Assembly: GCF_900327775.1 (NCBI RefSeq)
Contig: NZ_OUMZ01000001.1
Location: forward strand, 22,882 to 86,881
DNA: 64,000 bases
Direction: 5' to 3'
Source of the DNA: Roseovarius sp. EL26
Lineage (GTDB): Bacteria > Pseudomonadota > Alphaproteobacteria > Rhodobacterales > Rhodobacteraceae
Below the pieces are notes generated by a model that saw only the letters and a program-made list of their open reading frames with translations, was not told where the DNA came from and did not search any database. The position numbers and the translations under genes are program-made. Positions 55,342-58,647 of this stretch are shown here, one piece after another. Numbering within the stretch: position 1 is the stretch's first letter; every line of letters begins with the position of its first letter.

Positions 55342-55436
55342 CGCAGGTTCTGATCTGAAATTTCCCCATATTGCCGTTTCGAAAATCGCATCTACCAGAT
55401 ATAGTGTTTATTGAATCACATATCGGGGGGCTTAGG

Positions 55437-56345
55437 ATGCCATTGAGCGCAGAGCAGCAGGCGGAAATTGATGAATTGCGGTCCATGCCGCAGCAGACCT
55501 TGCGGGTGGTGTCGGAGGGGATGGAAAAGCATCTCTATAACGCGCATCCGGTGTTGGATCACGGCTTCGTGCGGGTGGTGGATTACATGGGCGATGACGC
55601 CGCGATCTGCCAGGCGGCGCGGGTGTCTTACGGCCGTGGCACCAAGTCGGTGCAAAACGACGAGGGCCTCATTCGGTACCTGATGCGGCACTGGCATTCG
55701 ACCCCGTTTGAGATGTGCGAGGTTAAGCTGCACGTGAAATTACCGGTGTTTGTGGCGCGGCAATGGATCCGCCACCGGACGGCGAATGTGAACGAATATT
55801 CGGCGCGTTATTCCATTCTGGACCGCGAGTTTTACATTCCTGCGGCGGACGATCTGGCGGCGCAATCGGTGGTTAACAATCAGGGCCGGGGCGAAGCGCT
55901 GAGCGGCGAAGAGGCCGAACGCGTGCTGCGCTACCTGCGCGATGACGCGATGCGTTGCTATGACCATTACGAGGAGATGATCAGCGATGATGGCCAACAG
56001 GGTCTGGCGCGCGAGCTGGCGCGGATGAACCTGCCGGCCAACATCTATACGCAGTGGTATTGGAAGGTCGACCTGCACAATCTGCTGCACTTTTTGCGCC
56101 TGCGTGCGGATGCCCATGCGCAATACGAGATCCGGGTCTATGCCGAAGCGATGTGCCAGATTGCCGCCGACTGGGTGCCCGCCGCCTTCCGCGCGTTCGA
56201 AGATTACCGCATGGGCGGGGCAACGCTGTCGTCCACCGCCCTCGACTGCGTGCGTCGGATGCTGAAAGGCGAAGCGGTCACGCAGGAAACCTCCGGCATG
56301 AGCAAAGGCGAATGGCGCGAGTTTCAGGGCGTGATTGAGGAGTGA
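55437..56345 (+). CDS. thyX: flavin-dependent thymidylate synthase ThyX
   Basis: A 302-residue ThyX. The signature [14 protein letters not shown] (112-125) matches RHRxxSxNExSxRY apart from Ala at the Ser position. It makes dTMP from dUMP with reduced FAD and methylenetetrahydrofolate. I chose the second ATG ([10 protein letters not shown]) because the upstream part (22 codons) lacks family likeness. Its stop lies 34 bases before the left att repeat of the islet. Confidence 0.95.
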
Positions 56346-56379
56346 GCACCTTAATTCCACTTCAACATTTGGTCAAAAT

Positions 56380-56396
56380 CTGGCGATCCCGGGAGG
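56380..56396. repeat. left att-like direct repeat
   Basis: CTGGCGATCCCGGGAGG is identical to the 3' end of the tRNA-Arg gene 2.19 kb away. It lies 34 bases after the thyX stop and marks the original junction if the islet was inserted. Confidence 0.85.
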
Positions 56397-56416
56397 GCTT
56401 TATGGTTTGTTTTATT

Positions 56417-56490
56417 TCAATGGCTTACGCGGAAAAGTGCCAACTTTTACCCCCTATAAGTATCAATGGCTTACAATCCAAGTGCCAACT
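56417..56490. repeat. two AAGTGCCAACT repeats at the left islet end
   Basis: Copies of AAGTGCCAACT start at 56435 and 56480. Each is preceded 17-18 bases earlier by TCAATGGCTTAC, so the unit forms an imperfect 45-bp tandem. Orientation is the same as the two right-end copies. Confidence 0.8.
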
Positions 56491-56527
56491 ATTTTGCATT
56501 GAAATCAGCCACTCTATTCTAAGAAAC

Positions 56528-56686
56528 CTTATTCTCGATAACCCCGCATTCGCATGGCCTTAAGCCGTCGAACGTGTTGGGCAATGAAGTCCTCAAATTC
56601 ATATCAGGCTTTATGGAAAGCTCTCGTATCGTGACTGCAGTACACACGGCCGCTCTCGAACTGGTTGTGATCATCGTATCCCCGCA
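56528..56686 (-). pseudogene. possible degraded short gene inside the islet
   Basis: On the minus strand a frame beginning MRGYDDHNQFESGRV reads through one in-frame TGA to VRRLKAMRMRGYRE and a TAA. The composition is protein-like (charged and aromatic residues spread normally), but no family is recognised and no ribosome-binding site is clear. It may be a remnant of a former islet gene or chance. Confidence 0.25.
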
Positions 56687-56781
56687 TACTTTCCTGTCAA
56701 AATGAAATTCCCATTGGGTTGTGTCCGTGGAAATGAAGTGCTCTAAAAGGCGAGCGAAATTGAAAATTAGGAGCACAAATT

Positions 56782-57828
56782 TTGGCAGTTCCATCGAAAC
56801 GCTGTAAAATACACTATCGACGCCTCAGGAGAGACAATTCCAATCTGCCTCAAGGGACTCTATCTCACCTATTGTCGACTGCTTTGAATACTCAAAAAGA
56901 CGGGACGTTAATCAAAGATAGCGTTGACCTTAGGATTGCACCAGCATCTGATGAGGCTCAAACGCAACGGCTAATAAATGATTATCATATTGAAAATGAT
57001 TATGTTTTTGGAAACACTTGCGCATTTACACCAGGTCAGATGCAAGCATTGCTGCGCACACAAACCAACAATAATCACGGAACACTTAGTGATATACTTG
57101 ACGCATATGATATTCGAGAAGCGCGGGCCAGAGATGGGCATGAATACGTAGGCGGGATTTGCTACTGGCTTGCAATTGAAGACCACTTTTACCAAATACA
57201 ACATGTGAGCTTGCAGGCAAAACAGATGGAAGAGTATTTCACGTGGCTCCTTCGAGAACAAACCAACACGGTAAATATCAACGCATTTGTGGAATTAGCC
57301 TGTCAGTTCGATAGCCAGCAAGTGGGAGGTGATTTGGACGATATCTCTAGCATAGAGATAGGAGGGATCGCTCCTGAAACAATTTATCAACCTTCGGAAC
57401 CTACACCAGACGAAGCGCTGGTCGAAGATATTGAGACAACTGAAACCGTCGGTTCTGAATCAGCCTACTTCGACAAAGCACGCGATGTTTTGGAAGCTTT
57501 AGTCGGATCAATTGGCACACAGCGCATCATGGACGAGATACCTGATGAGGCTTCACTAGAGGTTAAAGTTAATATCGGCTACAAAGCCAAGAAACGAAAA
57601 TTTAACAAAGAGTTCATGGGGAATATTGCTTCGGGGTTGCGAAATCTTCCAGATGGAGAAATGAGAGTGCGTGGACGTAGCGGTGAAATGCGAGGCACTG
57701 ACATACGCCTGTCAGAAGACATGAGTGTGAAAAAAGTTTCTGATGGGAGTAGTCTACTTGATATGGAACACGCTCTTGAACAAATGCTCGAAGTTCATCG
57801 CCGTTTCGTGCATGATGGAAAAATATAG
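56782..57828 (+). CDS. unrecognised soluble islet protein (gene A, 348 aa)
   Basis: The start is a TTG with AGGAG eight bases upstream. No transmembrane segment is predicted by eye. The N-terminus is basic (SKRCKIHYRRLRRD). Residues 85-160 contain a compact segment reading HEYVGGICYWLAIEDHFYQ and then SLQAKQMEEYFTWLLREQTN. An acidic linker (about residues 200-230, with PSEPTPDEALVEDIETTE) separates it from a C-terminal part with SLEVKVNIGYKAKKRKFNKE, GLRNLPDGEMRVRGR and SSLLDMEHALEQML. I do not recognise the family. It is followed after 12 bases by a membrane protein gene with a similar TTG start, so the two are one operon. Function is unknown; a sensor paired with a membrane partner is a hypothesis. 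Confidence 0.8.
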   Translation: MAVPSKRCKIHYRRLRRDNSNLPQGTLSHLLSTALNTQKDGTLIKDSVDLRIAPASDEAQTQRLINDYHIENDYVFGNTCAFTPGQMQALLRTQTNNNHGTLSDILDAYDIREARARDGHEYVGGICYWLAIEDHFYQIQHVSLQAKQMEEYFTWLLREQTNTVNINAFVELACQFDSQQVGGDLDDISSIEIGGIAPETIYQPSEPTPDEALVEDIETTETVGSESAYFDKARDVLEALVGSIGTQRIMDEIPDEASLEVKVNIGYKAKKRKFNKEFMGNIASGLRNLPDGEMRVRGRSGEMRGTDIRLSEDMSVKKVSDGSSLLDMEHALEQMLEVHRRFVHDGKI

Positions 57829-57840
57829 CGGAAGATACAA

Positions 57841-58419
57841 TTGAAACTGCAGTGGTCACATATCTTAGCTCCCTTGGTAATAGGAGCGTTGTCCGGAGTA
57901 TTTACTACTTCGGCAACTTGGATATCGCTTTCACCGGCGCTCACAAATGTAGTTGCTATCGTTTCTGCAGGAGTGTTGGTGAGATTGGCGCGAGGAGTGC
58001 CGTTTTCCGCGATTGACGTCTTGGAAGTAAACGAAGCAAAAAAGTTGGCTCAGGCCTTAAAACGGTCGGTTCGCGCTCTGCGTAGTCTTTTGTTGGTTTG
58101 TTTTCTAACTATTCTTTGCCTAGTGTTTGCTGCTCAACTTGGAGACCTTGCTGCATGGTTGAAAGCTAAAGAGTTGCTACCATTTGCGTCAAAATTTGAT
58201 TTTGTAGCGGCTCTTGTCGTTGCCGCACTCACCTACGTTTTTGTTAGAGCTTATGCAGTTGTCGACGGTGATATTCAAATTGCTGATATTCAAGCCAATA
58301 TTTTGCTTAAGAAACGTGGTAAAGATCGAGCTGATAGCTTTCAGAAAGATGTTGTCGAATCTACGAAGGGTAAGTTTCGGCAACCGGAAGGCTATGGTCG
58401 AACTGTTCCAAGCAAGTGA
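57841..58419 (+). CDS. unrecognised four-helix membrane islet protein (gene B, 192 aa)
   Basis: The start is a TTG with GGAAG upstream. Hydrophobic segments lie near residues 8-28, 33-50, 80-105 and 118-140, in two pairs around a central charged loop (ARGVPFSAIDVLEVNEAKKLAQALKRSVRALRS region, 49-81). The C-terminal 50 residues are soluble, with DIQIADIQANILLKKRGKDR and a basic end. No known family is recognised. Size and architecture fit the small membrane effectors of two-gene defence or toxin modules, but also fit channels or scaffolds. It ends about 74 bases before the first right-end repeat. Confidence 0.8.
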   Translation: MKLQWSHILAPLVIGALSGVFTTSATWISLSPALTNVVAIVSAGVLVRLARGVPFSAIDVLEVNEAKKLAQALKRSVRALRSLLLVCFLTILCLVFAAQLGDLAAWLKAKELLPFASKFDFVAALVVAALTYVFVRAYAVVDGDIQIADIQANILLKKRGKDRADSFQKDVVESTKGKFRQPEGYGRTVPSK

Positions 58420-58493
58420 TAGTCGAGTTGATAGCTACTGGATAACCTAGATTTCAGCTCTGTAGAGCGCGTGTATATCTGATAGAAGAATGA

Positions 58494-58527
58494 AAGTGCC
58501 AACTTTATTTTGAAAAAAGTGCCAACT
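58494..58527. repeat. two AAGTGCCAACT repeats at the right islet end
   Basis: Copies of AAGTGCCAACT start at 58494 and 58517, spaced 23 bases. They lie 66 and 43 bases inside the right att repeat and share orientation with the two left-end copies. Confidence 0.85.
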
Positions 58528-58570
58528 TTTTATCATAAGTTATTGATTTAAAACGATAATAATGAGGGGC

Positions 58571-58647
58571 TGGCGATCCCGGGAGGACTCGAACCCCCAA
58601 CCCCCTGATTAGAAGTCAGGTGCTCTATCCAGTTGAGCTACGGGACC
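58571..58647 (-). tRNA. tRNA-Arg(TCT)
   Basis: The minus strand folds as a full cloverleaf. The acceptor GGTCCCG pairs with CGGGATC (one G-T pair), followed by discriminator G and encoded CCA. The D arm is GCTC...GAGC, the anticodon arm CCTGA-CTTCTAA-TCAGG gives anticodon TCT (arginine), and the T arm is GGGGG-TTCGAGT-CCTCC. Its 3' end is one copy of the islet direct repeat, so integration regenerated the gene. Confidence 0.95.

Follow-up and report, generated by a model that had tools for sequence, protein, structure and literature searches.

How does a 2.19-kb, AT-rich segment enclosed by direct repeats come to lie at the 3' end of a tRNA gene when it carries no integrase, and what might its two genes do there? 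The segment, which we call the islet, is found in Roseovarius sp. EL26 within a stretch of 64,000 nucleotides (contig NZ_OUMZ01000001.1, positions 22,882 to 86,881; hereafter, the window, in whose numbering positions are given). We read it as an integrase-less tRNA islet that resembles a cis-mobilizable element (CIME) and carries a RexAB-type phage-exclusion module, and we put the probability of this reading at roughly 0.7.

The boundaries of the islet are marked by CTGGCGATCCCGGGAGG, a 17-bp exact direct repeat with two exact copies in the window (56380-56396 and 58570-58586); even with up to three mismatches allowed, the same two sites alone were matched, while shuffled sequences gave a mean of 0.28 and reached two or more matches in 2 of 100 cases. 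The alignment lengthens to 20 bp with one mismatch, placing the left attachment (att) copy (attL core) at 56380..56399 and the right copy at 58570..58589, both given on the plus strand. The right copy overlaps the 3' end of the gene for tRNA-Arg(TCT) (58571..58647, minus strand), the integration target, and the GC content is 0.435 between the copies versus 0.579 and 0.576 in the 5-kb flanks. A preliminary description of this DNA, made from the letters alone, had proposed that a 17-bp direct repeat surrounds a 2.19-kb AT-rich segment, that one copy lies in the tRNA 3' end, and that DNA of foreign composition was inserted there site-specifically; the repeat, its position and the GC contrast agree with it in each respect. 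Direct att repeats, one of them being the tRNA 3' end itself, are what a tRNA-targeted element is expected to show, and there is good support for site-specific entry at the tRNA. A match to RF04354 at the tRNA was the complement of the tRNA and under the cut-off, and was ignored. Inside the repeats are two co-directional and tightly spaced open reading frames (ORFs) of 348 and 192 amino acids.

No integrase was matched in a Pfam scan of three islet ORFs, and when ten tyrosine recombinases (from this genome, from relatives and from one phage) were compared with the islet by tblastn, the best E value was 0.12. The segment thus lacks an integrase, as had been described before, and with it the means by which an autonomous element would move. 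In the relevant passage of PMC5704250, a CIME is a decayed integrative and conjugative element (ICE) or integrative and mobilizable element (IME) that retains attL and attR; the islet is similar in that it has kept its att sites at the 3' end of a tRNA gene and has no genes for integration or transfer. It nonetheless differs from a CIME in being only 2.2 kb long, far under the size of an ICE, with no trace of ICE genes found and no accretion partner seen, and in having arm-like repeats at both ends and a phage-exclusion-like operon. Phage satellites such as phage-inducible chromosomal islands (PICI) and P4-like elements are also small and site-specific and commonly have defence cargo, and they are equipped with an integrase plus replication or packaging-hijack genes. 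The islet shares with them the small size, the site specificity and the defence-like cargo, but no integrase, regulator, primase or packaging gene was recognised in it, which sets it apart from these satellites.

The first gene, ORF1 (56782..57828, plus strand; 348 amino acids), starts with TTG behind an AGGAG at 56769-56773 and belongs to phrog_3482, a family otherwise labelled unknown. The top fold match in the PDB of its AlphaFold2 model was lambda RexA (8twq), and the model points to the two-domain, RdgC-related fold of RexA. The second gene, ORF2 (57841..58419, plus strand; 192 amino acids), also starts with TTG and has four membrane helices predicted from hydropathy, as would suit a RexB-like partner; its match to SUR7 was under the Pfam cut-off and was ignored. 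Neither Pfam nor PADLOC was informative for the two genes, and no known defence model was matched. The preliminary description had spoken of two unknown genes: the number is right, but from the fold of ORF1, the predicted helices of ORF2 and the phage context described below, the two appear to be RexAB-like.

The pairing of the two genes is not peculiar to this islet. At loci L005, L006, L007 and L009, the gene immediately downstream of the ORF1 homologue encodes a protein with predicted helices (4, 4, 3 and 4, respectively), and further partners of this kind were found at L188, L189, L190 and L191 (4, 3, 2 and 4 predicted helices); in total, a putative membrane partner is present in 8/9 cellular loci of ORF1 homologues. 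L008, matched over 93 residues with an E value of 2e-4, was left out of this count as a chance match. ORF1 has at least 120 listed homologues, and ORF2 has 21 other than itself, of which nine are on contigs equal in size to that of an ORF1 homologue (among the 120 listed), and in one such case the two homologues have consecutive locus tags. ORF1 is a single-copy gene in its own genome and, with this genome included, was matched in 4 of the 394 family genomes sampled (nearly all one per genus) and in 3 of the 385 class genomes sampled; no homologue was found in the viral contigs searched. Within the stretches examined at loci L005, L006 and L007, no tRNA end recurs over 12 bp or more. In L189 (genome G341), judging from the starts of the ORFs, the RexAB-like pair seemingly stands amid transposable-phage-like genes.

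Four phage records were examined for gene context. In Escherichia phage Perceval, the pair comes directly after CI, and its second gene is annotated as transmembrane. In Acinetobacter phages phi1_092021 and Ab105-2phi, a single small ORF separates the pair from the repressor that precedes it; the RexA-like gene of the former is annotated as "DefenseFinder protein" and the second gene of the latter as "putative membrane protein." In Shigella phage SfIV, the ORF1 homologue is near the lysis genes, and its short downstream neighbour lies beside a piece of IS1. In three of the four records, therefore, the pair is located after the repressor, as in lambda.

RexAB is among the oldest known phage-exclusion systems. 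The part of PMC12894663 concerned with PP_5643-5644 of Pseudomonas putida describes a RexAB-type pair that protects and acts via the membrane; there, the RexA was found by remote homology, no homologue is reported for the membrane partner, and the described RexAB-like systems are counted as only five. Additional RexAB homologues have been reported in actinobacteriophages (PMC11077077). The islet pair resembles the RexAB of lambda (PMC11077077) and of P. putida (PMC12894663) in the order of a RexA fold followed by a predicted four-helix membrane protein, and also in that homologues of the islet genes come after repressors in phage genomes. Fold, partner and phage context make the RexAB-like nature of the cargo well supported, and by analogy its function would be phage exclusion. 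The pair in EL26 is the only cargo of a tRNA islet that lacks an integrase, and no prophage is recognisable around it; a search of the literature by title and opening of the abstract found no account of this combination. An unnamed gene pair, widespread in Alphaproteobacteria and phages, is also tied in this way to a testable defence function.

Just inside both att copies, furthermore, are repeats that the preliminary description, while correct on the att repeats, had overlooked. The sequence AAGTGCCAACTWT has four exact copies in the whole genome (3,907,904 bp in seven contigs), and these are in the islet, two per end and in one orientation: arm repeat 1 (AAGTGCCAACTTT, 56435..56447), arm repeat 2 (AAGTGCCAACTAT, 56480..56492), arm repeat 3 (AAGTGCCAACTTT, 58494..58506) and arm repeat 4 (AAGTGCCAACTTT, 58517..58529), all on the plus strand. 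Within a pair, the start-to-start spacing is 45 bp on the left and 23 bp on the right. When three mismatches were allowed to a 16-base form of the motif, the window gave four matches, which are just the arm repeats, versus 0.61 on average in shuffles. Between the left and right end regions, the longest exact direct match is 16 bp, a length reached in 0 of 2000 dinucleotide shuffles (maximum 13), and the best inverted match between these regions is 7 bp. A second motif, TAAGYYATTGA, adjoins the arm repeats, and all three matches to this pattern in the 64 kb are at the islet ends: TAAGCCATTGA on the minus strand at 56417..56427 (plus-strand reading TCAATGGCTTA), 7 bp ahead of arm repeat 1; TAAGCCATTGA again on the minus strand at 56463..56473, 6 bp ahead of arm repeat 2; and TAAGTTATTGA on the plus strand at 58536..58546, between arm repeat 4 and the right att copy.

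What such repeats may be is indicated by elements at the same tRNA in congeners. The tRNA-Arg(TCT)-truA query matched, at least partly, all 60 genus genomes sampled (the EL26 genome included), and in 20 congeners up to ~13 kb beyond tRNA-Arg was examined for repeats of the tRNA end and for ORF1; since the tRNA-Arg of L085 (G436) is divergent with just 1.3 kb beyond it, 19 of the 20 are a fair test. In 2 of the 20, the tRNA 3' end recurs as a copy of 30 bp or more, at a distance of ~9.5 kb in L088 and ~9.3 kb in L089, and in both an integrase of 394-396 amino acids adjoins the distal copy, with Phage_integrase (PF00589) and Arm-DNA-bind_3 (PF13356) domains above the Pfam cut-offs. A paired direct repeat is present at both ends of each element (GGGTGCCATATGGGTGCCA in L088; CGGAAGCAATACGGAAGCA in L089, with a spacing of 11 bp), and the matches shared from end to end are 22 bp in L088 and 25 bp in L089 (0 of 2000 shuffles each). 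A TCAATRNCTTA box is located just past the tRNA in L088 and L100, or 2/20 congeners. These elements are like the islet in the target tRNA-Arg(TCT), in the paired direct repeats at both ends and, for L088, in the box on the tRNA side, but they differ in their size, in the presence of integrases and in their arm sequences. In lambda-type integrases, the N-terminal domain binds arm-type sites, as stated in the relevant section of PMC2951348. Because the same layout occurs in integrase-bearing elements at the same tRNA, with integrases of the arm-DNA-binding kind, the four end repeats of the islet are read as putative arm sites that an integrase would bind; judged from its repeats, the islet is laid out as those elements are, with an arm word of its own, and is read as having retained an attP-like set of sites without the integrase. 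A TCAATNNCTTA-like box was also seen 3' of tRNAs holding different elements (L088, L100, L119 and, by eye, L005), and such a box is possibly a shared attachment-site feature of one integrase family.

Taken as a CIME-like carrier of phage exclusion, the 2.19-kb islet would have entered the 3' end of tRNA-Arg(TCT) by means of a tyrosine integrase and would have kept the core repeats and two arm repeats per side, which on circularisation would make up one attP, with no recombinase. Its sole cargo would be the two-gene RexAB-type exclusion operon. If the pair works as in lambda and P. putida, the RexA-like protein would bind DNA and sense infection, whereupon the RexB-like membrane protein would damage the membrane barrier and halt growth, so that the infection is aborted. 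The islet may also serve as a very small natural unit for asking if att sites alone suffice for movement in trans.

Several observations weigh against this reading. On the side of the cargo, the AlphaFold2 model of ORF1 is of middling quality (predicted local distance difference test score, pLDDT, 69.8), and a sequence-profile search of the PDB with 46 homologues found no RexA; the islet pair differs from the described RexAB in this absence of a sequence-level match to lambda RexA, and also in standing outside a recognisable prophage with no CI repressor in the islet, its exclusion activity being putative. The ORF1 homologue at L187 has no obvious membrane partner, and the phage records found directly were just one by ORF1 and none by ORF2, versus nine by the Perceval protein. 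On the side of the ends, 1 of 100 shuffles also gave four matches to the 16-base arm motif, and no empty tRNA-Arg site was seen in any relative. A helper was likewise not apparent. The EL26 genome has seven PF00589 matches, two of which score, in our reading, like XerC/XerD and five like phage-type integrases; around the latter five (~3.5 kb each), there were scattered resemblances to the arm word at three mismatches, none of them convincing. The exact paired-arm pattern was matched in one genome among the 394 of the family and in one among 84 of the genus, and a composite arm motif in 1 of the 385 class genomes, each time EL26 itself; no relative with an integrase and the same repeats, for which the preliminary description had proposed a search, was found in these three sets. 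In viral contigs, three arm patterns gave 12, 1 (L135) and 0 stretches, and the 12 include several tandem repeats and no tRNA.

The origin of the islet can be explained in several ways, and the two that survive best are about equally likely; indeed, the choice offered before, between an element dependent on a helper and a decayed one, still stands, as the arm-like repeats at both ends fit both. One quite plausible explanation, at somewhat under even odds, is that the islet is the end of a decayed prophage: a temperate phage whose rexAB lay close to one edge would have integrated at tRNA-Arg and then lost all but its two ends and the exclusion genes, which selection retained. Phage genomes do carry ORF1 homologues, and in Roseicyclus (L007) a tRNA-Met is ~0.8 kb to one side of the pair, while to the other side there are genes for a phage tail protein (PF13550) and a glycosidase (PF00182). 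No phage remnant was detected, however, as DNA searches gave no match for 56495-56790 among plasmids or for 56340-58600 among phages; no piece of an integrase was found, and both ends look intact and close to the cargo.

The islet might equally be a working minimal element mobilised in trans by an integrase that a prophage or ICE in the same cell, of matching arm specificity, would supply, an explanation with a comparable share of the probability. It would account for the attP-like sites at both ends, for the layout shared with integrase-bearing elements at the same tRNA and for the compact gene spacing, but the searches above revealed no helper with these arms, ORF1 is single-copy in the genome, and no sister islet was seen. 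More speculatively, and in our view rather improbably, the islet may represent a class of ~2-kb "sites-plus-defence" satellites that combine a full attP with an abortive-infection operon and borrow the integrases of the very prophages they guard against.

The repeats are very unlikely to be iterons for replication, or sites for a regulator, from a small plasmid that became integrated. They are short and direct, and a 27-bp piece near the right end with the TAAGTTATTGA box resembles a sequence ~0.5 kb upstream of a Pseudomonas plasmid replication gene; the plasmid matches are nonetheless weak (E 0.01-0.5) and share the box and an AT-rich flank but not a full arm repeat, no replication gene is among the islet ORFs, the repeats are evenly divided between the ends, and integrase-bearing elements at the same tRNA have the same layout. 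That the att repeat reflects chance or an ancient tRNA duplication with no recombination would agree with the lack of an empty site but is scarcely credible, given that the GC boundaries coincide with the repeats and that specific end repeats exist.

The remaining parts of the islet were less informative. Promoter and terminator scans did no better than chance, and no relatives were found for a 91-amino-acid ORF on the minus strand (Pfam and PADLOC) or for the 280 bp ahead of ORF1 (DNA searches).

Outside the islet on its left is thyX with its upstream region (55392..56345, plus strand), which is 99.3% identical over 950 bp to the thyX on contig C7 (L041, 8328-9281). The context of the C7 gene recurs in relatives, with a glyoxalase-like neighbour in 6/13 loci, and there is a tRNA in none of the 13 congener thyX loci (7.5-8.5 kb each); the islet-side thyX is a recent ectopic second copy, whose native place is on contig C7. 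The preliminary description had expected relatives lacking the islet to show thyX followed by one att copy and tRNA-Arg; with thyX native elsewhere, such an empty site need not exist in relatives, and that comparison was ill-posed. Six transversions separate the two copies of thyX, all of them in a ~62-bp section of the conserved signature region, and one more difference falls at the edge of the match. Where the window copy and all 13 relatives have V, Q and N, the residues of the C7 copy are E, K and Y, so that the ectopic copy looks like the conserved version.

The gene order around the islet is also unusual. In genomes G396 and G402 (L158, L159), leuS-holA is ~16-17 kb away on the other side of truA, and the region corresponding to 35.7-55.3 kb of the window comes almost directly after that of 58.6-62.4 kb; the order in EL26 is thus circularly permuted, and the thyX copy and the islet are at the joint. 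The proximity of truA and leuS-holA is not a rule in the genus, as in G400, G401 and G409 a long distance separates them on a shared contig, and other genomes have them on separate contigs. In G407, the sequence right of holA corresponds to EL26 contig C5 near 626-636 kb. The contig of the window (C1; 86,881 bp) has an exact self-overlap of 662 bp, which would close it to a circle of 86.2 kb, either an assembly artefact or an excised chromosomal circle; it carries leuS, groEL-like, smc-like and other core genes (named by eye), with no replication gene recognised among ten ORFs scanned. Finally, Paracoccus and Leisingera plasmids (L131 and L132, from ~4000) contain tRNA-Arg-like stretches that resemble the 3' end of the islet's tRNA.
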